Part shown: positions 1,561 through 62,515 of the stretch, piece by piece | How positions within the stretch are numbered: the first letter of the stretch is position 1 | Layout of the letters: every line of letters starts with the position of its first letter | Source: Lepraria neglecta | Taxonomy: Eukaryota > Ascomycota > Lecanoromycetes > Lecanorales > Stereocaulaceae | Length of the DNA stretch: 64,000 nt | Direction: 5' to 3' | Assembly: GCA_033220425.1 (NCBI GenBank) | Contig: CM065649.1 | Location: 1,736,001-1,800,000, forward strand | Program-made: the position numbers and the translations under genes | The notes under the pieces: model-generated | Told to the model about the DNA's origin: nothing | Database searches by the model: none | What the model saw: only the letters and a program-made list of their open reading frames with translations

Positions 1561-2906
1561 TTTGTGACGACGTATCGGTCAGCCTCTCGCCCCTTGATTG
1601 GACAGCGATCTTGTCTTCCTCACGAGCACTTTCAGGATTCTGGTGTCGCCGAATGCTTACTCGGTCATGTGGTGCTGGCGCTCATGTTCTCACACATTGT
1701 ATAGCTTCGTATTCGTCGATTGAGCGTCGGCTTCTTTGTGTCTTGGAGGGCCGCAAAGAGCACCTCTCCGTATATGAAGCCCGGATTTCTCCTCTCTTCT
1801 CCTTTTCTTTGAACAAAGTTCAAAGCATCAATTTAGCTGATTAAATCTATCACCATTCCATCATCCACTTTGTCAAGAATTACAACATCCCCACCTCTTT
1901 ACCGCAAAAGAATATTCGAAATGACCATCCGGATATTCGACCACTATTGGGCCCCTACATATAACCGGAAAGGCCTTTTCCTTCTCGAGTAGGCGCCCCC
2001 AAATGTTCAAGTTTAAGACACTCCAGTACTAATTCATACTTACCCTACAGGTATATAAGGTACTCCGGGATTGGGCTGTTCCAAAGTCAGTATTTGAATT
2101 GTGCTGTTCTGATCATGCTTTTGACTTGCCTGATCTAGATCTGCATTTTCGAAAAGCTTTGTATGCGGTCAACTACTTGGTGTCTTGTTTATTAAGGTGA
2201 TAATGGACAAGTGAGGATGGTAGTTTGCTGAAGAGATTGAGCACGTCGAGAGCCCCAATTTATAAATCAGTCTGCGTTTTAGGCAGCTCCTCGACCCCCT
2301 TGAATAGGACCTTTGAGGCGATGTTCTTCAATGCAATAAACCAAAAAAGGAGTGTTGCTCAGCAAAATTCGCCCTCGATGGTGCGAGCGTCCAATTGGAC
2401 TTCGAGGACCTGTAAATAGAAAGCTTTCATGTTTCACTTTTGCCTCCATTAAACTCATCTCAATCATTACAAAGACATCTGTCAAGAAGACCATGTCAAG
2501 AGTCGCCATACGCACGTAAGAGTTGCTTCGGGACTCCGTTCTTTCCCGCTGCAATCCTGTGAAGATAACATGTGTCTTCAAACCCTGACACGTTATGACG
2601 TGTATGACTCCTCTTCTTTCCATAAAAGAGGCCACTCCGTATGCTAAGGCCCAAGCTTAGATCGAGTTGGGAGGCGAACATGACCTCCGATGGGTACTGC
2701 AGCCTGAGTGAACTCCAGGAAGCGTGAAACATAACGAGCCGAGCGGTGCCGGAACCAGAGCTTGAAGGTCTCGTGGATTCTGAATGCAAAGAAGAGTACA
2801 AGCAGCTCATGCAGAAGAGAGTAGGCTGTTGCCTATACACGAAAGACTGGAAAGATTCCCGGATGGCGATTCAAGACTGTGACAAGTCGACGTACCACTT
2901 TCAACT

Positions 2907-3670
2907 TCATACAAAAGTGGTAACCGAGTATTTGAGATATGGCTGCTTGCAATTGGGTGATGAGCAACGCCGGCTGGGAAGGGAGTGTAGCACTCCGAAA
3001 CGACCAAAGCAGGCTTGATATTGAATAATGGTACTCGAAACTTCAGGTTTCGTACCTAGCTTTTCCTTTGACCATTCAATGAGCTCTATCATCTCTCCAA
3101 AGCGGTTCTTAATTCTTTCCAGAAACTCTCCAATACCGAAATCTTTCTTTTGTTTCTGGACAGAGCCTGGCAAGCGAGTCTGTGAAAGGCGTTCACCGTG
3201 CTGCGGAACAGAGGTATTCGAGTCAGTCGGTGCAAGGAGCTCTCCGGAAAGAGATTTATTGTGTGCCAATTTGTCTACTATAAAAAATTTCCATGGGCTT
3301 TTCGAAGCTGGCACTGTTTTATCGGGCTCTTAATAACCTTAACGCATGAGGATAGCTTACTGTTCATCTCTCCAGGCTTGAATAACAAGATTGGCGGCAG
3401 CGGCTTGACTCAATTTGATCCAGCCGAATGAAAAGGGGTCAGTGTTGTCGTGTATCTTGTACATTTCCTGACAGCCGCATGTAAGGAGATCCCTGATTCC
3501 AAATGCGCGAGGCCTTCTGTTTACCCCTTGAACGACTGTACCAAATTTTGCGAATATCTCTCGCAAGTTTTGATCGTCGGTAGAAGTTGGAAGTGGTCTG
3601 TAGGGAATTCGACTTTGCCCATCACCTTTCCCATGGTGACAGCCCCGACGAGAATCCTTGTTGGAGCCAT
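2907..3670 (-). CDS. Possible small gene or remnant, unidentified
   Basis: The minus strand has two open stretches (3357-3566 and 2907-3314) that could be exons of one gene, with a possible start at 3670. The first contains REIFAKFGTVVQG; the second is charged and helix-like (GEFLERIKNRFGEMIELIEW). A GTAAGC donor-like site follows the first stretch. I recognise no family, the join is not certain, and the surroundings are gene-poor, so this may be a remnant or chance. The rest of 761-4860 shows no gene I can support. Confidence 0.2.
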
Positions 3671-4860
3671 GAATCGTAATCGATCTACGTGACCGGCACC
3701 GATCCCTGAACAGGAAGCGTAGGAAAGGTGAAAGTGAGCGGCGTTTGAGTCAGAAATTGTAGATAACTTTCAAATGTGGACAGAAGAATAGGCAGAAATA
3801 TGGAGAACTCAGATCAATTCGGGAGAGAGGGTCATGGCTCTTTTATACGCAGCAGACTTTGATGACACCAGCTCGGTAGTCAAGAAGTGCGAACGACCAC
3901 GTACTTGGAATGACGATCTACTTGACAATCGGTGCATTACAGTATGACTTAGATACTGAGAGAACAGTCGCAGCATGTTATTGGGAGATACAAGATAGAA
4001 GTGGACTGTGCAGATCGTACCAGATGGTAGTACTCATTGGGAAACCAATAGAGGACTCTTGGTGAAGAGAATTGAACTTGGCGTAAGGGCGCAGCATTGG
4101 ATGCTCATTGTCGTAGGTGGTGTTCGGTACGCCCTTGTACTAATTTCGGTGGTTTGAGCGGAATTGGAATGGACGTCGAATGAAATTATTAGGCCAAGCA
4201 CTAGAACGGTACGATACCTTCCGTTGGAAACCAATTTGAATCAACTTCCTAGACGTCCGTCCGTCAGGCATCAAAGATGATTAGGTGCCTTCCGGGTAAG
4301 CTTCACCGTGAGAGTCTTTGGCGAACTGTTTATCGAACTGCCTGCTTGCATTTCCAAGCCTGCTGTCCGTCAACATTGGAAGCGCTGAAAAGAGCCATTC
4401 AGGTGGAAGATTCTTAGGCAGTATGCCATCACCGAGTTCCCAAGCGATATCCTGACATTTAGTAGTCTTTCTAACAAGAACATGATCACATTCACGTATC
4501 GACCTTCCTTCGCCTTTTGCAAAAAGATATCGGTGATGTTTAATCACCTCCTTATTTAGATCTTTGCGTTGCTATTCTGCCCCCATATAGCTGACAACTA
4601 TCCATGCTGGATCTTGAATAATTGCTAAATCAGAACCATGAAAATGGACTGCGTCGACATAAAAATATGCGTGCCTAAACATGAAGAAAATTGGCTCCGG
4701 CACTTCCCGCTGAGCCGCACAAGAAATTCAAAGGCTAAGCCGCTACCTTACGCTCGACTCACTCGATTCGGCATCCCTTCTGACCCGTGACAGCAATCAC
4801 TTCACAACAAGCTGCAACAAGAGGTCGCCGAACTAAGCAGAGCATACGGCCGAAGAAGCC

Positions 4861-35805: not shown

Positions 35806-36374
35806 TTGGAAGGTATTATTGGATAGTATAAACACTGTAATAATAATCTCCTGATTGCTGAACGCCAATATTGCAAGAGAATTATCTATTGCAATTGTTG
35901 ATGCTAGACTTACATCGCCAGAGCCGGCGTTAATTGACTTAAGCGCAGCATTATCTTTGGGCTAGGTCTAGGTTCTGATTGAGGTACCCGAAGTATAATC
36001 GGAGGCTTCCTGGCCTGGGTTGGAGCGTCTTTCGATTTGATCATTTCATAATCGATAATATTCGCATAAGGGTCTTCCGTAAATGAATGATGGTTTTGAG
36101 AAACTCTAAGTCACCTTCTTGGACTCAGTAGCTTCCTTTCTGAGGTTCAACAGTTACTATCTATGGAGTTGTAGAAACTGCCACAAACGCAAGATCCAGC
36201 CTTATAGAAGATGTTCCACCAATCCGGAGCTAGAATCATGCCTCGGCGCTTCCTTTGCGGCTGAATTCACCTAGCGTGGAACTACCCGGCTTACGTCATC
36301 TGGTGCACGGCCCCACCTGATGCACGATTTTGACATTTTCCACCATATCTTCCACCGTATATACCTCCACCAAT

Positions 36375-37712
36375 ATGAGCTCGATAGATGCAGCCCTGGC
36401 CTTCATAGATAGCCTATCACCAGACGATCACATTAATATCACTAAGATAGCCAAGCAGTTCGAATGTGACCGTTCTACCCTATCGAAACGATATCGCGGC
36501 AAAACTGGATCCCGCAATACCCAATATCAAAACCAACGAAATCTTAACAACCAACAAGAAAAATCCTTAGTAAAATATATCGATGGCTTATGCGCGCGCG
36601 GCCTACCACCTAGCAAACATATGATTCGGAATTTCGCGCAGGAAATCTGCCATAAAGAGATAGGAAAAGAATGGGTTTCGCGCTTTCTACACCGTCACCA
36701 TGTTGAGCTGGTTTCAAAATGGACAATGGGCCTAGACCATAATCGTTCTCGCGCAGATTCGGCATTCAAATATACATTATATTTTGAGCTATTAAGGAAG
36801 AAAATCGAGCAGTATAGGGTAGAGCCGCAGTATATATACAATATGGATGAAAAAGGATTTTTGGTAGGAATACTTTCAAAGATGAAGCGAATTTTTTCCC
36901 GCAGGCGTTATAAAGAAGGATCGATCAAACAACTTATTCAGGATGGGAATCGCGAATGGATCACGACTATTGCAGCTATATGCGCGGATGGATCAGCTCT
37001 ATCACCAGGGCTTATCTATCAAGCAACTACAGGCCTCATCCAGGATTCATGGCTTCAGGATTTCGATCCAAACGCGCAAAGCTGTTTCTTCGCCTCATCG
37101 CCATCTGGTTGGACTAATAATAAGCTTGGATATCAATGGCTGACGCAAATATTCGACCGCGAAACAAAAGCCAAGGCGCAAAGATCTTGGAGGCTCCTAA
37201 TCCTAGATGGCCATGGATCACATATCAGTATGAAGTTCATCGACTACTGCGATACCTATAGGATCCTATTGGCTATATATCCGCCACATTCAACACATAC
37301 GCTGCAGCCCCTAGATGTCTGTTTGTTTCGGCCATTATCACAGGTATATTCAAACCAACTTGCGATATTTATGGATCAATGCCAGGGCTTTTCATCTATT
37401 ACTAAACGGGATTTCTTTCGACTATTCTGGCAAGCCTGGAACACCTCATTTACCCCTGAAAATATCTATTCTAGATTCAAAGCAACTGGTCTACACCCCT
37501 TTAATCCTGAGCTTATTATCACCAAGTTCACCAAAAAGAATGATGATCGGTCTTCTTCTACCTCTTCTACCCGCTTAGTAATAGCTGCAGAAGATTGGAA
37601 ACGCATTGAAAAGCTGCTATATAATGTGGTTTCCAATATCTATGACAAAAAGGCGCAGCAGCTAAGCAACACGATGTATACGCTATCTATTGAGAATATG
37701 CTACTAAAATAA
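36375..37712 (+). CDS. Pogo/Fot1-type DDE transposase, prematurely ended
   Basis: The start MSSIDAALAFIDSLSP is usual for fungal Pogo transposases. An HTH region (INITKIAKQFECDRSTLSKR), a CENP-B-like second HTH (GLPPSKHMIRNFAQEI), then the DDE catalytic core follow: NMDEKGFLVG (first Asp), LLILDGHGSH (second) and LQPLDVCLFRPL (third). The open frame is 445 codons from the Met at 36375. It ends at a TAA at 37710. Downstream in the same frame the sequence still reads as the family's Lys/Gln-rich tail to about 38240, but with seven further stops. All eight can be explained by CAA/CAG/CGA changing to TAA/TAG/TGA. So the copy is probably inactive, although the catalytic part is open. Confidence 0.88.
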   Translation: MSSIDAALAFIDSLSPDDHINITKIAKQFECDRSTLSKRYRGKTGSRNTQYQNQRNLNNQQEKSLVKYIDGLCARGLPPSKHMIRNFAQEICHKEIGKEWVSRFLHRHHVELVSKWTMGLDHNRSRADSAFKYTLYFELLRKKIEQYRVEPQYIYNMDEKGFLVGILSKMKRIFSRRRYKEGSIKQLIQDGNREWITTIAAICADGSALSPGLIYQATTGLIQDSWLQDFDPNAQSCFFASSPSGWTNNKLGYQWLTQIFDRETKAKAQRSWRLLILDGHGSHISMKFIDYCDTYRILLAIYPPHSTHTLQPLDVCLFRPLSQVYSNQLAIFMDQCQGFSSITKRDFFRLFWQAWNTSFTPENIYSRFKATGLHPFNPELIITKFTKKNDDRSSSTSSTRLVIAAEDWKRIEKLLYNVVSNIYDKKAQQLSNTMYTLSIENMLLK

Positions 37713-38647: not shown

Positions 38648-41600
38648 ATGGACGGCGTCAGTGCCGCAGCAAGCGTCGTTGCTCTTGTTCAAATATCTGC
38701 CAAGGTTGCGTCTCTCTGTGCAGAGTATTACTCCCACGTGAAGAGTGCCAAAAAAGACATCGACCGATTTCATCTAGAGGTTAAAGCACTTATCAAAGTT
38801 CTTCAGAATTTGCAAGAGCTTGCACAAAAACCAGGAGCAGAAAAGCTCTTTACGTCGAATGCACTTAACGAATCTATCAAATCATGCTTGTCGGAACTTA
38901 CGCACTTCAAGGAGAGGCTAGAGCCGGGAAAGGGTCGGAAGGCTATGAGCCGGTATGGGATTCGAGCTTTGAAGTGGCCATTTGAAAGTAAAGAATTAGA
39001 AAAGGCCATCGGTGTACTTGAGAGATACAAATCTACATTCAGTACCGCTCTGAATATAGATCAGACGTAAGGTATCTCTAAATCAATTTCTAATTAAGCT
39101 AACCTTCACAGCTCTTTGCTCCTTGACTTTGATGTCAAGCTGGATTCAGCCGAGCAAGATCGGTGCCTTTCTAAGCTGCCTTATGCGGTCGGTGCCGACT
39201 TTGATTCCTACGAGCGGCAACACGAGCCTTACTGTCTTCCCGACACCCGTGTGGATATTCTACGCCAGATTATGGAATGGAGCGCTGATCCATGCCACAA
39301 GAGCATCTTTTGGTTGAATGGCATGGCAGGTACAGGCAAATCCACCATCGCTCGGACTATCACACGGACTCTTACCGAGCAAAGGCGATTTGTGGCCAAC
39401 TTCTTCTTCTCCAGAGGTCGGGGGGACCTCAGCCATACTGGTAAACTCTTCAGTACTATTGCAATCCAGCTGGCAGCAACGTGCCGGCCGCTCAGACACC
39501 TCATCTGTGAAGCGATAGCCGAACATGACAACATATCTCGGCAATCTATGCGTGATCAGTGGACCAAATTGATTCATCAACCACTAATGAAATTAAGCGG
39601 CAACCTACAGTCCCCTCCATCCTTTGTGGTGGTGATTGATGCGTTGGATGAATGCGGCCGTCAAGAAGATATCCTGACACTTCTTCAACTCCTGAGGGAG
39701 GTCAAAGATCTCCGTACTGTGCAGCTTCGAGTGCTTGTGACAAGCCGGCCTGAAACTCCAATTCAACTTGGCTTTCAAGCTATCCCTGGAGACGTGCATG
39801 AGGATTTCAAGCTTCATACTATTTCTCCCGCTATTGTTCGACATGACATCGCTATTTTCTTAAGGCATGAACTGAATAAGATCGGAGAGGCCCGCTCGCT
39901 TCCATTGGACTGGCCTGGTGAACAAAAGCTTGAGATCCTTGTAGGGAGATCCAGTGGCCTATTCATCTATGCCGCCACTGTATGTCGATTCGTTCAGGAT
40001 CCGAAATGGCTTCCAGCAAAGCGTCTAGACATTGTTCTTCGAGGGAGTGACGACGGACAAGAGCCGACGCAACGGCTGGACGAGATGTATGTCCAGATCC
40101 TTAAGAGCTCTGTGATTGGGGAGTGCAGTGGAAAAGAGAAATCGATATTGAGTCGACACTTCAGGGACACGGTGGGACCGATTGTGATACTCTTTGATTC
40201 ACTCTCTAGTGTTGCGTTGAAGGGGCTTCTTCCAAATCTATCAGAGGTGATATATATCACACTCGAATCGCTCAAATCCATCGTAAATGTTCCCGAAGAT
40301 CAAAGCTCACCGATTCGATTGCTTCACCCATCGTTTCGTGACTTTCTCCTCGACCGAAATCGATGTTCGGATGGAAGTTTCTGGATTGACGAAGGGAAGA
40401 CTCATCACGATATTGCTCAGCAATGCTTAGATATCATGTCGAAGACCCTGAAAAGAAATATTTGCCACCTAAAGACGCCTGGTATATTGAGGAGTCAAAT
40501 AGAGAGTACCATAGTGGATCGATACCTGCCTCCTCATATTCAATACGCTTGTCAGTATTGGGTTAGTCATCTTCAAAAAGGTAGCCCCCACCTGCACAAT
40601 AGTACACAAGTATACGACTTTCTTCAGGACCACTTCCTTCATTGGCTCGAAGCACTGAGCTTGATAGGCAAGATTGCTGAGGCTGTGCTTATGATAAAAA
40701 TGTTGGGCTCTATACCTGCGGTAAGCGGTTCAAAAATATTTCCGTATATTGTATATACTGATCCGACCAATCTCTAGTTTCAACCCGATTTAGACTTACT
40801 TGCCTTTGTGAATGATGCAAAACGGATCATTCTAGAGTCTAGATATATTGCAGAGACGGCACCTCTCCAGCTCTATAACTCTAGCCTTGTTTTCAGCCCG
40901 GAAGCTAGTATTGTTAAGCGCCAGTTTTCAAATGAACTACCAAAGTGGATTGAAAGACTCCCAATTGTCGAAAAGGATTGGACTCCTTCGTTACAAGCGC
41001 TCGAAGGTCATTCAGGTTCGGTCAGGGCGGTAGTCTTCTCCCCTGACGGCCGGCTTCTGGCCTCTGCATCTGAGGACAAGACTGTCAGACTCTGGGACCC
41101 GGCTACAGGAGCCTCCCGAGGCACGCTCGAAGGTCATTCAGGTTGGGTCAGGGCGGTAGTCTTCTCCCCTGACGGCCGGCTTCTGGCCTCTGCATCTGAC
41201 GACAACACTATTAGACTCTGGGACCCGGCTACAGGAGCCTCCCGAGGCACGCTCGAAGGTCATTCAGATTGGGTCAAGGCGGTAGTCTTCTCCCCTGACG
41301 GCCGGCTTCTGGCCTCTGCATCTTTTGACAACACTGTCAGACTCTGGGACTCGGCTACAGGAGCCTCCCGAGGCACGCTCGAAGGTCATTCAGGTTCGGT
41401 CAGCGCGGTAGTCTTCTCCCCTGACGGCCGGCTTCTGGCCTCTGCATCTAACGACAACACTGTCAGACTCTGGGACCCGGCTACAGGAGCCTCCCGAGGC
41501 ACGCTCGAAGGTCATTCAGGTTGGGTCAGGGCGGTAGTCTTCTCCCCTGACGGCCGGCTTCTGGCCTCTGCATCTGATGAAGCCTCTGTATCTGATGACG

Positions 41601-44600
41601 CCTCTGCATCTGATGACGCCTCTGCATCTGATGACGCCTCTGCATCTGATGACAACACTGTCAGACTCTGGGACCCGGCTACAGGAGCCTCCCGAGGCAC
41701 GCTCGAAGGTCATTCAGGTTCGGTCAGGGCGGTAGTCTTCTCCCCTGACGGCCGGCTTCTGGCCTCTGCATCTGATGAAGCCTCTGCATCTGATGACGCC
41801 TCTGCATCTGATGACACCTCTGCATCTGATGACAACACTGTCAGACTCTGGGACCCGGCTACAGGAGCCTCCCGAGGCACGCTCGAAGGTCATTCAGGTT
41901 CGGTCAGGGCGGTAGTCTTCTCCCCTGACGGCCGGCTTCTGGCCTCTGCATCTGATGAAGCCTCTGCATCTGATGACGCCTCTGCATCTGATGACGCCTC
42001 TGCATCTGATGACGCCTCTGCATCTGATGACGCCTCTGCATCTGATGACGCCTCTGCATCTGATGACGCCTCTGCATCTGATGACGCCTCTGCATCTGAT
42101 GACAACACTGTCAGACTCTGGGACCCGGCTACAGGAGCCTCCCGAGGCACGCTCGAAGGTTATTCAGGTTGGGCCAGGGCGGTAGTCTTCTCCCCTGACG
42201 GCCGGCTTCTGGCCTCTGCATCTGACGACAACACTGTCAGACTCTGGGACCCGGCTACAGGAGCCTCCCGAGGCACGCTCGAAGGTCATTCAGGTTGGGT
42301 CAGGGCGGTAGTCTTCTCCCCTGACGGCCGGCTTCTGGCCTCTGCATCTTTTGACAACACTGTTAGACTCTGGGACCCGGCTACAGGAGCCTCCCGAGGC
42401 ACGCTCGAAGGTCATTCAGATTGGGTCAGGGCGGTAGTCTTCTCCCCTGACGGCCGGCTTCTGGCCTCTGCATCTGAGGATAACACTGTCAGACTCTGGG
42501 ACCCGGCTATAGGAGCCTCCCGAGGCACGCTTGAAGGTTATTCAGGTTGGGTCAGGGCGGTAGTCTTCTCCCCTGACGGCCGGCTTCTGGCCTCTGCATC
42601 TTTTGATAACACTGTCAGACTCTGGGACCCGGCTACAGGAGCCTCCCGAGGCACGCTCGAAGGTCATTCAGGTTGGGTCAGGGCGGTAGTCTTCTCCCCT
42701 AACCGCCGGCTTCTGGCCTCTGCATCTGAGGACAACACTGTCAGACTCTGGGACCCGGCTACAGGAGCCTCCCGAGGCACGCTCGAAGGTCATTCAGGTT
42801 GGGTCAGGGCGGTAGTCTTCTCCCCTGACGGCCGGCTTCTAGCCTCTGCATCTGAGGACAACACTGTCAGACTCTGGGACCCGGCTACAGGAGCCTCCCG
42901 AGGCACGCTCGAAGGTCATTCAGGTTCGGTCAGCGCGGTAGTCTTCTCCCCTGACGGCCGGCTTCTGGCCTCTGCATCTGAGGACAATACTGTCAGACTC
43001 TGGGACCCGGCTACAGGAGCCTCCCGAGGCACGCTCGAAGGTCATTCAGGTTCGGTCAGCGCGGTAGTCTTCTCCCCTGACGGCCGGCTTCTGGCCTCTG
43101 CATCTAACGACAACACTGTCAGACTCTGGGACCCGGCTACAGGAGCCTCCCGAGGCACGCTCGAAGGTCATTCAGATTGGGTCAGGGCAGTAGTCTTCTC
43201 CCCTGACGGCCGGCTTCTGGCCTCTGCATCTGACGACAACACTGTCAGACTCTGGGACTCGGCTACAGGAGCCTCCCGAGGCACGCTCGAAGGTCATTCA
43301 GGTTGGGTCAGGGCGGTAGTCTTCTCCCCTGACGGCCGGCTTCTGGCCTCTGCATCTAACGACAACACTGTCAGACTCTGGGACCCGGCTACAGGAGCCT
43401 CCCGAGGCACGCTCGAAGGTCATTCAGGTTGGGTCAGGGCGGTAGTCTTCTCCCCTGACGGCCGGCTTCTGGCCTCTGCATCTGATGACGCCTCTGCATC
43501 TGATGACAACACTGTCAGACTCTGGGACCCGGCTACAGGAGCCTCCCGAGGCACGCTCGAAGGTCATTCAGGTTCGGTCAGCGCGGTAGTCTTCTCCCCT
43601 AACGGCCGGCTTCTGGCCTCTGCATCTGACGACAACACTGTTAGACTCTGGGACCCGGCTACAGGAGCCTCCCGAGGCACGCTCGAAGGTCATTCAGATT
43701 GGGTCAAGGCGGTAGTCTTCTCCCCTGACGGCCGGCTTCTGGCCTCTGTATCTTTTGACAACACTGTCAGACTCTGGGACTCGGCTACAGGAGCCTCCCG
43801 AGGCACGCTCGAAGGTCATTCAGGTTCGGTCAGCGCGGTAGTCTTCTCCCCTGACGGCCGGCTTCTGGCCTCTGCATCTAACGACAACACTGTTAGACTC
43901 TGGGACCCGGCTACAGGAGCCTCCCGAGGCACGCTCGAAGGTCATTCAGGTTCGGTCAGCGCGGTAGTCTTCTCCCCTGACGGCCGGCTTCTGGCCTCTA
44001 TATCTGAGGACAACACTGTCAGACTCTGGGACCCAGCTACAGGAGCCTCCCGAGGCACGCTCGAAGGTCATTCAGGTTCGGTCAGGGCGGTAGTCTTCTC
44101 CCCTGACAGCCGGCTTCTGGCCTCTGCATCTAAGGACAAGACTGTTAGACTCTGGGACCCGGCTACAGGAGCCTCCCGAGGCACGCTCGAAGGTCATTCA
44201 GGTTGGGTCAGGGCGGTAGTCTTCTCCCCTGACAGCCGGCTTCTGGCCTCTGCATCTTTTGATAACACTGTCAGACTCTGGGATATTAGAACAGGGACTA
44301 TAATTCAGCAAATTGAACATAAATACAACGAATGTCTCTCGTTTAATCAGGATGGGTCCCAGCTGGAGATAGACGAGAGACTTCTTCAGATACCAGCATC
44401 TTCTCTAGAAGTTTCTCCCCATATACAGGGTCTAGCTGATATATTATACACAATAGATATCAAGAGGGAATGGGTGACTTATAAGGGTTGTAATGTTCTT
44501 TGGCTTCCACCTAACCGCCGTCCAGGTGTATATACTATCCGCAATAATATTCTGGCGCTAGGAAATGGGTCTGGTCGAGTTACATTTCTTAAATTCAGTG

Positions 44601-44626
44601 TGATAGTTGCTCCATCCTGTACCTAA
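38648..44626 (+). CDS. NACHT-WD40 NLR (HET-D/E-like, NWD) with 24 near-identical WD40 repeats
   Basis: A STAND-class receptor candidate for non-self recognition. Exons 38648-39066, 39112-40720 and 40778-44626 give 1958 residues without a stop. Residues 1-140 form a fungal STAND N-terminal domain (MDGVSAAASVVALVQIS; KSAKKDIDRFHLEVKAL), of the HeLo-like/SesA type by look. The NACHT NTPase has Walker A GMAGTGKST (about 210-218) and Walker B VVVIDALDEC (about 312-321). WD40 repeats run from about 751 to 1854, each 42 residues and nearly identical at DNA level, as in the hypervariable HET-D/E/R genes of Podospora. Four repeats carry DDASAS expansions. A 100-residue tail follows. Met 38648 is preferred over an upstream in-frame Met because the family starts this way. 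A decayed Pogo element sits just upstream. Confidence 0.92.
41000..44311 (+). repeat. Array of 24 WD40-coding repeats, 126 bp units
   Basis: The unit starts LEGHSGxVxAVVFSPDGRLL, continues ASASxDNTVRLWD and ends PATGASRGT. Differences concentrate at unit positions 6 (G/D), 7 (S/W), 9 (R/K/S) and 25 (E/D/F/N/K), with the rest almost fixed. Pairs of adjacent repeats recur as blocks: repeats 3-4 and 20-21 have the same variable residues. This indicates concerted evolution by unequal exchange. Not a CRISPR: units are coding and unspaced. Confidence 0.95.
41576..42097 (+). repeat. 18-bp minisatellite (DDASAS) nested in WD40 repeats 5, 6 and 7
   Basis: A unit of the form gatgacgcctctgcatct is inserted between the ASAS and DDNTV parts of the WD40 repeat: four units at 41576-41647, three at 41774-41827 and eight at 41954-42097. 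A single unit is also present in repeat 18 (43484-43501). The first unit of each of the three long blocks codes DEAS instead of DDAS. All keep frame. The insert is in a loop, so it would lengthen one surface loop of the propeller blade. Confidence 0.93.
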
Positions 44627-46679
44627 ATCTTTTACATAACGAGCTGTTTCTAGCTAGTTGGGATATTCTCATACATATGCCACTATAACGCCTCCTTGAG
44701 GTTACTAACTTAGAAGACTATATCTCTGGTTTCCGTGTATGAACCCACTCTAGTAATATACTCCACTGCTCCGGTAATCCTAAAATTGAAAGTTGAAAGT
44801 AGACGTCTTAGAATCGCGAGCTATGGTTATCAAAATACTCAAGGAATAGATCTCTAAGAGAGTATTAGGGAATATCGACACATAATACGAAGCCTCTTGA
44901 GGCATTTTCGACTCGTCACCAAAGCTTCTAGCCAGTAGACCGGTGTGTGGAGTGCATGGCTCTTCATTATTCCTACTCTTTCATTATTCCTACCCTTATA
45001 ATTCTTATCCCCTTATTATTTTTACTTGATCAGAGTTCTTACTCCTTGAAAGCTCTTAGCAAGAAGAAATGAGTATAAATCTTATAATTGGCCCTTTCTG
45101 TGAATCAGTGCTTTGCTAGTACTGCGTACTTATTTTGAGGGACGACGCTTGATTGGGTAGCGGACGATGCTCTGTTCTAGAGGCGCTAGCAAAAGTTCCA
45201 TTCTCTCGACAGAGCGAGACTTTGTTCAAGGTTCGCGACGCAGATCGCATTCCGAGATATACCTTCTTACTGGAGATACAGGAAAAGAGCAATAGGACCT
45301 CCAAAGTGTAAACGAGACCCTTCCCCAGTTCTGGACCCACCAATTCTAGAACTCTTAAGAAGTTCTGATCCCTTTTGTCTACTTGAAGTTTACGTAATTA
45401 ACGAGCAAGAAATAAGCCACCTTTACGGGGTCAAACACGTGCCCACTTTCTTTCCCGTCAGCAGAACTATTGAATACTCACCTAGCTATCCACCAGGTGT
45501 GGTTTATCCCAGCCATTGTTTACCATAAGTTATTGGGCAGCGAGTGTAGAATCGTCGAGACTAGCGCGATTACGGCGGCTACTCGATGATCCTGCGATCA
45601 AGGACCGACCACGAGCCAAAATATATATATCTTCCTTGTTCGAATGCGGTTGGGAGATCTCTCCTGGACCTGCTTTCCCACGAGGTCCAGTATAGCTTGA
45701 CCCCGTTTGATCCACAACCCGTTTACCAACAAGCTTATGTGCTTGAGTAGTCTCCTGGGACCACCTCTCTAGGGGGCCAGGGTGATCCAGATGGAGAGAG
45801 GTAGGGGTCCGTAGAAGCTTTAGAGATACCTCGAGGTAATAACAGTAAAGGCTCAGCTCACGTCGTTAGAGAAGCCGATCTAATATAAAAACGGTAGATT
45901 AGCGGGCACGAATTGGTCACGCGCTCCTTTGGACCGGCTATTCGCAAGGCTATTAAACATCATTGGTCAAGATGCTATAAATAGAGTAATGAAAATTCAT
46001 CGATGGAGGATAGAGAGCACCATTTACAGAGACACCGACTAATATAAAACATGCATTGGCGAAATAATCTCTTTAAGTAGCTCCTTAGGTATAGGAAGAC
46101 GGATTGAATAGCTTCCTACCCGTCGGGGAGGCGAGGGTCAAAGCTTATCGCACACAGTGTCATTTTAAGTCCGTCGTCTTCTGCGATTTTTGATCCCTTG
46201 ACGGACGGACATCTGGGCTGGGGCCTGCTTTGGCTGGCTTAGTCGTAGCAACACCTTCGGCTGGGGCCCAGGTTTGGGTTGGCGGATCCGAAGTATGATA
46301 CGAGGTTTGTTGGTCTTGACGGGGATACTTTCCGGTTTGGCGGTATTCTGATCGATCAAATCCGCCGGATAGGGGTCCTCCTCGGCGCAGAGGCAAATGT
46401 CACCGAAGGTTACGGTTTGCGAGTATATTCCTCCATCGCTGTCGTGGTTGCCGCCGATGCCTTATACGGAAAAACATGACGGGGATCGGGAACGTAGGTA
46501 TTGAGAGAACACGGCATCCTCGCCAGGCAGTAGGGACTCGTGTTCATCAGTATTAGTTCCTGGCAAGTCTCAAAACCACTCAAGCTCGATGTGCTAGGAT
46601 CGTTCGACTTCGGTATACCTCCCTAGATCATTCGTTCCTTAGCGAGACTGGATTCTGATTCCTGTCTGTGTTTCAGGAC
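44627..46679. other. AT-rich decayed stretch, no intact gene
   Basis: About 2 kb with many TA dinucleotides and stops in all frames. A short basic minus-strand frame (46165-46359, with PRIILRIRQPKPGPQPK) could be a piece of the neighbouring DUF3435 relic or another element. I see no intact coding region, RNA gene or clear terminal repeats. Confidence 0.5.
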
Positions 46680-47820
46680 CACTTACCATTGACCTTCTTG
46701 CCGAGGTAGCAGCGTATAGTATTAACTATAGTATTGCCAAAGTATCCCGAAAGGTTCAACACAGATTTGAGAATACGATCGAAGGTTCTCTTCGGAAGCG
46801 GCTCTTTGGTGACACTATATTATATAGTAGCGTTGCGGAGTATAGGTAGAGCCTATACAGAACTATTCCATCGAAGGATAAGCTCGTCTTCGCCTGGGGG
46901 TATTTGTAACTACTATAGATCTTCGAATGAATCTATACCCTAAATAGTATTGTCTGCGAGAGCCAAAGCAAGTAGATACTAGGTATTATCGTAGAGCAGC
47001 TTGCTGTGTTAACTAGTAGATATACCGTAACTTCAAATATAAATCATTGTTAGTAAATATATATGAGATAAGGTAGAGAGAAGTATTCTCGGGGTCGCGG
47101 TTATTTTCACACAACGCTGGTCGATCCGATAGATCGCCTTCTAACCACTACTAGGGATACATTTTAGAACAAGGTCAATATCCTGCAAGCAATCAGCGAA
47201 TCTCGCCCTCAAATCGTTCCAGGGAGATATACCCGGTACCGAAGGCCCCCTTTATATTTATTCTCCTTCTCCAGGAAGAAGGCGCCGATTCTTACTCCTG
47301 TCCAGCAGAAGACGGCGATTGCGAAGGGAATTTGAACTTTATTACGTGGATAGATAAATTGGGCGTCGTCGATAGTCCAGAATATAATAGTAAACTGAAC
47401 CAGCTCCTTTTCACCGAATAAGTACTTCGGCTTTTTCTTACTTACGACTAGGCCTTCTCTGGTCAGGGTATTCCTGGTCTACTAATAAAGTTCCGTTCAG
47501 CTATAGGGATATTATTTTCTACTTCGGCATGCACTTATATCGTATACCGCACGTCTATCCTCCTTATCCATACGGTTACCAGTTACTCGAGTAAATCCAG
47601 TAAAGAACCACTCTGTAAAGGTATTTATTGAATCGACGGTGACCTTTTTCTGTCCGTTGTTGATAATTCCTTGGCTGGTAGCGATAATAAAGCGAAGGAA
47701 GTCTAGAGGAGGTAAACCTTGTTGAAGACTCCGTGCTCCGATAGTACAGGAGACGTCGACCGCGGTATCGTCACCGAAAAGTGCCTCTCCTATATCCTGT
47801 TCCTTCTGGGAGGAAGGGTG
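46680..47820 (-). pseudogene. Decayed DUF3435 tyrosine-recombinase-like gene
   Basis: Minus-strand translation in pieces gives LQQGLPPLDFLRFIIATSQG, INTFTEWFFTGFTRVTGN, KKKPKYLFGEKELVQF, IAVFCWTGVRIGAFF, then DIDLVLKCIPSSG and IYRIDQRCVK, and finally RILKSVLNLSGYFGN and RCYLGKKVNG. This order matches DUF3435 proteins as I know them; the Arg in CWTGVRIGAF corresponds to the catalytic arginine of tyrosine recombinases. DUF3435 proteins include the captain recombinases of Starship giant transposons. The gene is interrupted by several stops and at least one frame change, and is AT-rich. Whether it headed a Starship or was a stand-alone copy is not known. Confidence 0.75.
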
Positions 47821-48033
47821 AGCGCGAAGCGTTGATCACCCAGTCGGGGTGTTGCATTACCAGGGGGTGCCGCATCGCCACTGCTTACCCAGCTCCCTCG
47901 CTAAAGCGGCAGCCCCCGAGCGAGTTTTTGTCGCCTTGAGATGCCAAGCCGTGGATACCTGACATTGTACCGTTGAATTCTCTCTGGCTTATCGCGAACC
48001 TCGTTGTTTTTCCCGGCTCCACGATTCCCAGCT

Positions 48034-62225: not shown

Positions 62226-62515
62226 CTAGAAGGGTTCACCCCCCCAACCGTTCACCTTGCTCTAACTCCACAGATACGGAGTTTGACAATATACATTTGC
62301 GTATAGAATTGTGGATTTTGTACGTCTCTAAAAGGTTGGTATAGAATCTTTTGTCGAAATTCGCCTGGTTGGTGAATTGTAGAGCTCTGCAAATTTTCGC
62401 TGCCTGCGCCCCTAGGAGAGCCCTAGCGTTGTACCCCGGAGCAGAAATATCGATAATACCGGGAGGCAGCCCTACAAGGCTGGCCGGTGGGGTTTGGGCA
62501 GGTGAACCCTTCTAG
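62226..62515. mobile_element. MITE-like element, 290 bp, 15-bp perfect inverted ends
   Basis: CTAGAAGGGTTCACC at 62226-62240 is matched exactly in inverse at 62501-62515, and the match continues loosely inward (ccccccaac against the inverse of gtttgggca). The interior has no open frame. Size and structure fit a non-autonomous DNA transposon; the CTAG at each end may include a TA target duplication. It lies 115 bp before the PEX20 start codon. Confidence 0.65.

Follow-up and report, generated by a model that had tools for sequence, protein, structure and literature searches.

A two-level coding repeat, in which an 18-bp minisatellite is nested in individual units of a 126-bp WD40 array, is present in a NOD-like receptor (NLR) gene on the + strand of the window (the whole 64-kb stretch analysed, positions 1736001-1800000 of contig CM065649.1 of Lepraria neglecta, whose 42.0-Mb genome is assembled in 11 contigs). 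The receptor gene has three exons, encodes 1,958 amino acids (aa) and combines PigL_N, NACHT and 24 WD40 repeats of 126 bp. The anatomy and history of the nested repeat are well supported, and its position suggests that it lengthens a turn on the recognition face of the sensor.

The assignment of the gene to the NLR type, already made in a first-pass annotation of the sequence, is borne out by Pfam. The nucleotide-binding region matches PF05729 NACHT (36.6 bits, cut-off 26.7) and PF24883 (114.5 bits, cut-off 24.8), the C-terminal repeats that form the superstructure comprise 24 PF00400 stretches, and exon 1 matches PF17111 PigL_N (47.1 bits, cut-off 27.2), with no other Pfam match in that exon at E up to 0.001. 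PigL_N-type domains serve as NLR effectors and may do so here. The gene belongs to the fungal NACHT-WD40 NLR class of signal transduction ATPases with numerous domains (STAND). Four intron combinations left the frame open, and the splice model adopted is the one with a GTAAG donor at both introns (GTAAGG..TCACAG and GTAAGC..CTCTAG).

Anatomy and history of the nested repeat

Tandem Repeats Finder (TRF) reports a 126-bp array at 40998-44283 with four 18-bp arrays inside it (Table 1). The WD40 repeats begin at LEG[HY]S and 20 of the 24 are exactly 42 aa long; repeats 5, 6, 7 and 18 measure 66, 60, 90 and 48 aa, and every difference in blade length is an integer number of 18-bp units. Since an ordinary blade already has one unit, the extra copies in these four blades number 4, 3, 8 and 1, the same counts as in the first-pass annotation. 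The inner unit, GCCTCTGCATCTGATGAC, encodes ASASDD and duplicates blade codons 21-26. Fifteen of the 20 inner units are identical in all 18 letters, and the rest are variants: the first unit carries GATGAA in repeats 5, 6 and 7, and two further units deviate, the second of repeat 5 (GTA) and the fourth of repeat 6 (ACC). A minisatellite is a tandem unit of about 10-60 bp in near-perfect copies, and the inner arrays have an 18-bp unit, 95-100% matches and up to 9 copies (TRF); their scores (Table 1) make a chance origin unlikely. The reading frame stays open throughout the WD40 array. Each unit contributes two acidic residues (32 from the 16 extra units) and all 20 units (41564-42103, 43472-43507) contain an S-x-x-[DE] stretch, which resembles the minimal casein kinase 2 site. 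The copy-number differences seen are those between blades of one gene in one strain, and it is from these that the locus is presumed to be length-variable.

Table 1. Coordinates of the receptor gene and of the repeats within it (positions in the window).
Feature	Position	Strand	Basis
Exon 1: N-terminal domain, PF17111 PigL_N	38648..39066	+	Pfam E 2.5e-12; start ATG and splice model
Exon 2: NACHT / NPHP3_N nucleotide-binding region	39112..40720	+	PF24883 E 7.3e-33, PF05729 NACHT E 5.1e-9 (frame 39116-40777)
Exon 3: WD40 sensor; 74 aa, then 24 repeats, then a 104-aa tail	40778..44626	+	24 PF00400 stretches; open reading frame to stop at 44626
Outer array: 24 WD40 repeats, 126-bp base unit (42 aa)	41000..44311	+	TRF and repeat segmentation
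Inner array, repeat 5: 5 units of 18 bp (4 extra)	41564..41653	+	TRF 5.0 units, score 166
Inner array, repeat 6: 4 units (3 extra)	41762..41833	+	TRF 4.0 units, score 130
Inner array, repeat 7: 9 units (8 extra)	41942..42103	+	TRF 9.0 units, score 317
Inner array, repeat 18: 2 units (1 extra)	43472..43507	+	TRF 2.0 units, score 72
176-bp identity: repeat 4 into the repeat 5 insert = repeat 17 into the repeat 18 insert	41405..41580 vs 43313-43488	+	sequence comparison

It is very improbable that the arrays are an artefact of assembly or sequencing, with repeat copies misplaced or inflated by the assembler. Short-read assemblies of such repeat arrays are described as unreliable in PMC12222747, but here repeat 5 has a GTA variant and repeat 6 an ACC variant of its own, all arrays consist of whole units in frame, no inner array exceeds 162 bp, and the 11 contigs of the genome suggest a high-grade assembly; exact counts could still be off.

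The insert blades share features that the remaining blades lack. GAT at codon 25 occurs in all four and is absent from the 20 without an insert (Fisher p = 9.4e-5, a descriptive value because the blades are related). When the insert is left out, the cores are identical between blades 6 and 7 and between blades 5 and 18, whereas the cores of 23 repeats differ on average by 5.3 of 126 bp; blades 6 and 7 thus combine a difference of five units with zero core substitutions. The GATGAA first unit is common to blades 5, 6 and 7 and is not found in blade 18, and an identity of 176 bp runs from the preceding blade into the insert at both repeat 5 and repeat 18 (Table 1). Three of the four inserts are consecutive (under random placement, three or more in a row have probability 0.04), which agrees with blade duplication. 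The shared GAT at codon 25 and the identical cores suggest a single origin, copying at the level of blades and a later change in copy number. The simplest account of the sequence would start from a single duplication that moved with its blade and grew further, after which blades were duplicated and copy number changed separately. Two independent length-variable layers had been proposed from the first reading; there are indeed two layers, changed at different times, but judged from these patterns they are distinct and coupled rather than independent, because the inner array travelled with the blades.

In the favoured explanation, codons 21-26 (ASASDD) would have been tandemly duplicated in one blade with GAT at codon 25, the new 18-bp coding minisatellite would have been copied along with entire blades via the unequal exchange that homogenises the array, and the inner copy number would then have been altered in place (3 versus 8 extra units on identical cores). 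A DNA hairpin as the cause of slippage gave a signal too weak to claim: in single-strand folding, the z score for 144 bases of the repeat 7 inner array was -1.94 on the + strand, where 6 of 200 shuffles equalled or exceeded its stability, and +0.71 on the - strand, compared with -0.88 for the repeat 5 array and -0.96 for a plain control stretch. Repeat-induced point mutation (RIP) was likewise rejected as the source of repeat variation. With thresholds of TA/AT above 1.1 and (CA+TG)/(AC+GT) below 0.9 applied to the 64 kilobase bins of the window, only 47,001-48,000 passes both, while 43,001-44,000, 44,001-45,000 and 45,001-46,000 pass the first only; no bin of the receptor gene passes both.

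The insert site and the predicted propeller

The closest known system is the HNWD/NWD family of Podospora anserina (het-d, het-e, het-r), which likewise combines NACHT with 42-aa/126-bp WD40 repeats of very high internal identity; the same highly conserved 42-aa repeats are found here, in number and core distance as given above. Both systems have variable codons 7, 9 and 25 (27 only weakly in the receptor gene), signs of repeat exchange and a divergent C-terminal stretch behind the similar repeats. The receptor gene differs in having PigL_N rather than HET, in its 24 similar repeats versus usually 11, and in its nested 18-bp arrays; such arrays are not mentioned for Podospora in the portions of that literature covered. 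According to PMC12222747, the Podospora genes usually have 11 similar repeats, for which two propellers that include three cryptic repeats have been modelled, and are polymorphic in repeat number. In PMC1805685, codons 7, 9, 25 and 27 of the repeat are under strong positive selection; 7 and 9 lie in the d-a loop, 25 and 27 in the b-c turn, and both places belong to the top binding face. PMC2873952 gives the identical selected codons.

The register of the receptor repeats matches that of Podospora, with variability highest at codons 25, 7 and 9, followed by 29 (mostly silent), 6 and 34. Codons 7, 9, 25 and 27 hold 38 of the 66 deviations from the commonest codon in 23 repeats (repeat 24, a divergent end, was excluded), a share reached by 3 of 100,000 random picks of four codons in a label permutation; codon 27 is weakly variable and accounts for 3 of the deviations. 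A crude ratio of nonsynonymous to synonymous polymorphism (pN/pS) is 1.1 at these four codons, 1.8 when codon 6 is added and 0.70 elsewhere, the first two values resting on one synonymous change. By their position, the variable codons suggest diversifying selection in this gene as well. Two paralogs in the same genome have related patterns: in L034 variation is greatest at codons 7, 25, 6 and 9 and extends to 27, with less at several framework codons, and in L031 it is greatest at 25 and 6 and smaller at 9, 12 and 27, with two residues at codon 7. By analogy with Podospora, the duplicated segment is the end of strand b plus the b-c turn, containing hypervariable codon 25. The register and variable codons match the Podospora binding face, and the insert would therefore lengthen a turn of the recognition face.

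Structure prediction with AlphaFold2 used repeats 3-9 as the query (384 aa, a segment chosen by the author, so that the true seven-blade closure may differ). A 16-row alignment, in which all rows came from the receptor gene, gave a mean predicted local distance difference test (pLDDT) of 45.4 and a predicted template modelling (pTM) score of 0.32, and this model was not used for interpretation. The second alignment had 75 rows, namely three from the window, one of them the query, and 72 bacterial seven-blade segments out of 87 selected at blade spacings of 40-52 aa (the 15 omitted each measure at least 900 bases). It yielded a seven-bladed propeller with pLDDT 84.7, pTM 0.81 and 281 residues at 90 or more, whose best PDB matches in Foldseek are WD40 propellers, several described as 7-bladed, with a target TM score of up to 0.97. 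In ordinary blades of this model strand b spans residues 19-24 and strand c residues 29-33, and the inserts fall between the corresponding strands. Sixty-three residues have pLDDT below 50, and 61 of them lie in runs 120-132, 185-192, 243-257 and 259-283, all inside inner arrays, whose edges have higher pLDDT than their middles.

These results modify the earlier description of the insert in several respects. Its placement in a blade loop between the ASAS and DDNTV parts agrees with the 75-row model (between strands b and c) and with the binding-face turn of the Podospora family, while the unit itself is corrected from DDASAS to a duplication of ASASDD, codons 21-26. A structured acidic arm extending from the propeller face is not what the model predicts; large parts of the inserts fall below pLDDT 50, which is read as disorder, and the inserts are accordingly predicted to be flexible or disordered. 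Disruption of the WD40 fold, raised as a possible objection, is not seen in the 75-row prediction, and with the 16-row prediction poor, the model lends moderate support to an intact fold. The inserts appear compatible with the propeller fold, short of proof.

Relatives and possible consequences for recognition

A search of the 42.0-Mb genome with the inner array, by a method that skips simple repeats and so leaves absence elsewhere unproven, gave four matches, all within the receptor gene. With all four matches in one gene, and viral contigs giving none to a 36-base pattern, an 18-bp satellite that is mobile or dispersed is unsupported. Matches in eight Staphylococcus plasmid records (14% of the query, 68-75% identity) are most likely coincidental Ser-Asp-type coding repeats; an annotated feature lies beneath the match in four of the eight (one SdrD B-like, three E domain) and none in the other four.

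A protein search with the NACHT exon found 32 places in the genome including the receptor gene; nine of the other 31 were examined, together with two further WD40 places. Blades were counted at eight of these 11 loci (the fragment L033, with four irregular matches, was excluded, and L122 and L123 yielded no blades), and none of the 92 paralog blades (22, 8, 20, 7, 12, 4, 9 and 10 per locus), final blades included, has an insert. The spacing between paralog blades is 42 aa in 83 of 84 cases and 35 aa in the remaining one, in L121. Insert blades number 4 of 24 in the receptor gene versus 0 of 92 in the paralogs (p = 0.0015, descriptive).

Bacterial relatives were surveyed in 80 loci, the best 80 of 573 confirmed, and the counts that follow refer to this set. 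Very similar blades, some with a 5-8 aa insert in the b-c turn, also occur in bacterial highly repetitive WD40 proteins (e.g., L101; PDB 2ymu), but theirs are single short inserts, in contrast to the tandem arrays of the receptor gene. Such inserts were found in a few blades of L037, L052, L056, L081, L083, L087, L101 and L105, and the turn therefore tolerates insertion. Of 1,375 neighbouring pairs, 115 have long spacings; a rough rule classed 23 of the 115 as long b-c hairpins, several of them false by eye. In L101 (3017-7034, a WD40 protein of Nostocales cyanobacterium HT-58-2), a 6-aa insert, GNIFSS, occupies the b-c turn of four blades and may be a bacterial parallel for the spread of an insert through blade duplication. 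TRF arrays with periods of 6-60 bp number 123 in the bacterial blade-bearing frames and 43 of them lie inside one blade. Only two of these 43 have at least 3 copies (L110, 6 bp, 4.5 copies, 76% matches, score 33; L111, 8 bp, 3.1 copies, score 32), and both are short and weak and coincide in part with the end of strand b, at which the receptor insert starts. A 27-bp tandem duplication within a single blade was observed at L106:5649-5702 (SVESVSFSP twice) and L112:5345-5397 (RLWDTATGM-type), a possible candidate for the first step of in-blade expansion. Although in-blade duplication occurs, no array comparable to 4-9 near-perfect units was found in this set.

Descriptions of tandem inserts inside WD40 repeats were likewise absent from the literature searched, in titles and the beginnings of abstracts, which is weak evidence of absence; within that scope, the earlier suggestion that no NLR with a nested arrangement has been described stands. 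The available portions of PMC12222747, PMC1805685, PMC2873952, PMC4986451, PMC9815663 and PMC12258605 mention no such insert. The fungal NLRs of Dyrka et al. 2014 (PMC4986451), whose WD, ANK and TPR repeats are internally conserved, belong to the same NLR class and share repeat-number variation and diversifying binding-face codons, but the text available describes them with variation in the outer layer (repeat number) only, and the words insertion, indel and minisatellite have zero occurrences in the main text. Coding minisatellites in general share with the inner arrays an in-frame unit, here of 18 bp, near-perfect tandem copies and counts that differ between sister sites; unlike the usual ones, the minisatellite of the receptor is nested in the unit of a larger coding repeat, from which a folded domain is built.

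If the propeller is retained, the inserts would form flexible, acidic, Ser-rich loops that add 24, 18 and 48 residues to three adjacent blades and 6 to a fourth. Most likely, alleles would then also vary in the length and charge of their recognition-face loops, as a second source of variation beside the existing one, and what the sensor binds would be altered or masked. Whether the inserts affect recognition in this manner is judged an even question, and inner copy number may vary among strains. Several observations weigh against the favoured explanation. The copy-number differences are those between blades of one allele, and none of the counted paralogous blades has an insert. The crude pN/pS at the four selected codons is only 1.1 and depends on a single synonymous change. 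The 16-row prediction was poor throughout, and the 75-row model is steered towards showing the inserts as loops, since no other row has inserts of such size.

The inner units are, moreover, nearly identical and undiversified, a pattern that a neutral passenger would fit equally well. Such a passenger would have the same origin and blade-borne spread, its extra units being tolerated slippage products in a flexible turn that leave recognition unchanged, and this is a quite plausible reading, if somewhat short of a probable one. Low model confidence over large parts of the inserts and the short inserts at the equivalent turn in some bacterial WD40 relatives also speak for it, and coding minisatellites often change copy number. 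It is harder to reconcile with the presence of the blade's most variable codon, 25, in the very turn that carries the insert, and the binding face would scarcely escape the influence of 18-48 flexible, acidic residues on three blades in a row. An unlikely further outcome is a masked or dead receptor allele, in which the long loops hide the binding face and abolish recognition, as in non-reactive Podospora het-e/het-d alleles. The 32 added acidic residues would suit such masking, and Podospora repeat numbers or combinations of other kinds are non-reactive according to PMC12222747, but the reading frame of the gene is open across 1,958 codons, its introns are canonical, and no kilobase bin within it passes both RIP thresholds (43,001-45,000 passes the first).

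Should the inserts indeed act on recognition, the gene might combine two tiers of length-based diversification without a dedicated enzyme, with unequal exchange setting blade number and order and the inner minisatellite setting the length and charge of the b-c loop; this broader proposal is tentative and rather doubtful. The proposed tuning of the b-c loop would be somewhat like the variation in loop length at antibody binding sites. Known routes of diversification in repeat-rich fungal NLRs are the shuffling of whole blades and the substitution of a few binding-face codons, and a change in binding-face loop length through a repeat nested in a repeat would be a third. If copy number differs among strains, it would provide a size-based assay of receptor alleles and a natural test of the role of loop length in recognition. 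The inserts also suggest how far a blade can lengthen at the b-c turn, which is relevant to propeller engineering.

Paralogs and flanking sequence

Within the genome, L031 shares about 82% DNA identity with the WD40 exon of the receptor gene outside the inner arrays (window 40746-44622), and the similarity begins inside intron 2. Protein identity between the two is only 48% in the NACHT exon, 80% in the stretch ahead of the repeats and 55% in the tail. The sensor region may have been swapped or converted between the receptor gene and L031, the lower identity of the tail counting against a clean swap of the whole exon. On contig C2, L033:4884-6650 is a truncated, rearranged copy of window 44142-45472 (the 3' end of the gene and its flank) in pieces at 93-98% identity, and window 62373-62497 is matched by another 128 bp of L033. 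The NACHT relatives L122 (C6:1514748-1516292) and L123 (C9:42298-43908) have 19 and 26 stop codons inside the match and are probably decayed pseudogenes; L122 has another 0.65 kb in common with window 46588-47230. Upstream of the receptor gene, an open DDE_1/HTH_Tnp_Tc5 transposase frame (window 36330-37712) ends about 0.9 kb away. The antisense of the WD40 array of L031 (plus strand 2459-4765) contains an open frame of 769 codons, as expected when the length of a repeat unit is divisible by three. On the minus strand of L032 (361-4251), eight insert-free WD40 blades lie in one long open frame with other kinds of sequence downstream, perhaps a sensor fragment inserted elsewhere.

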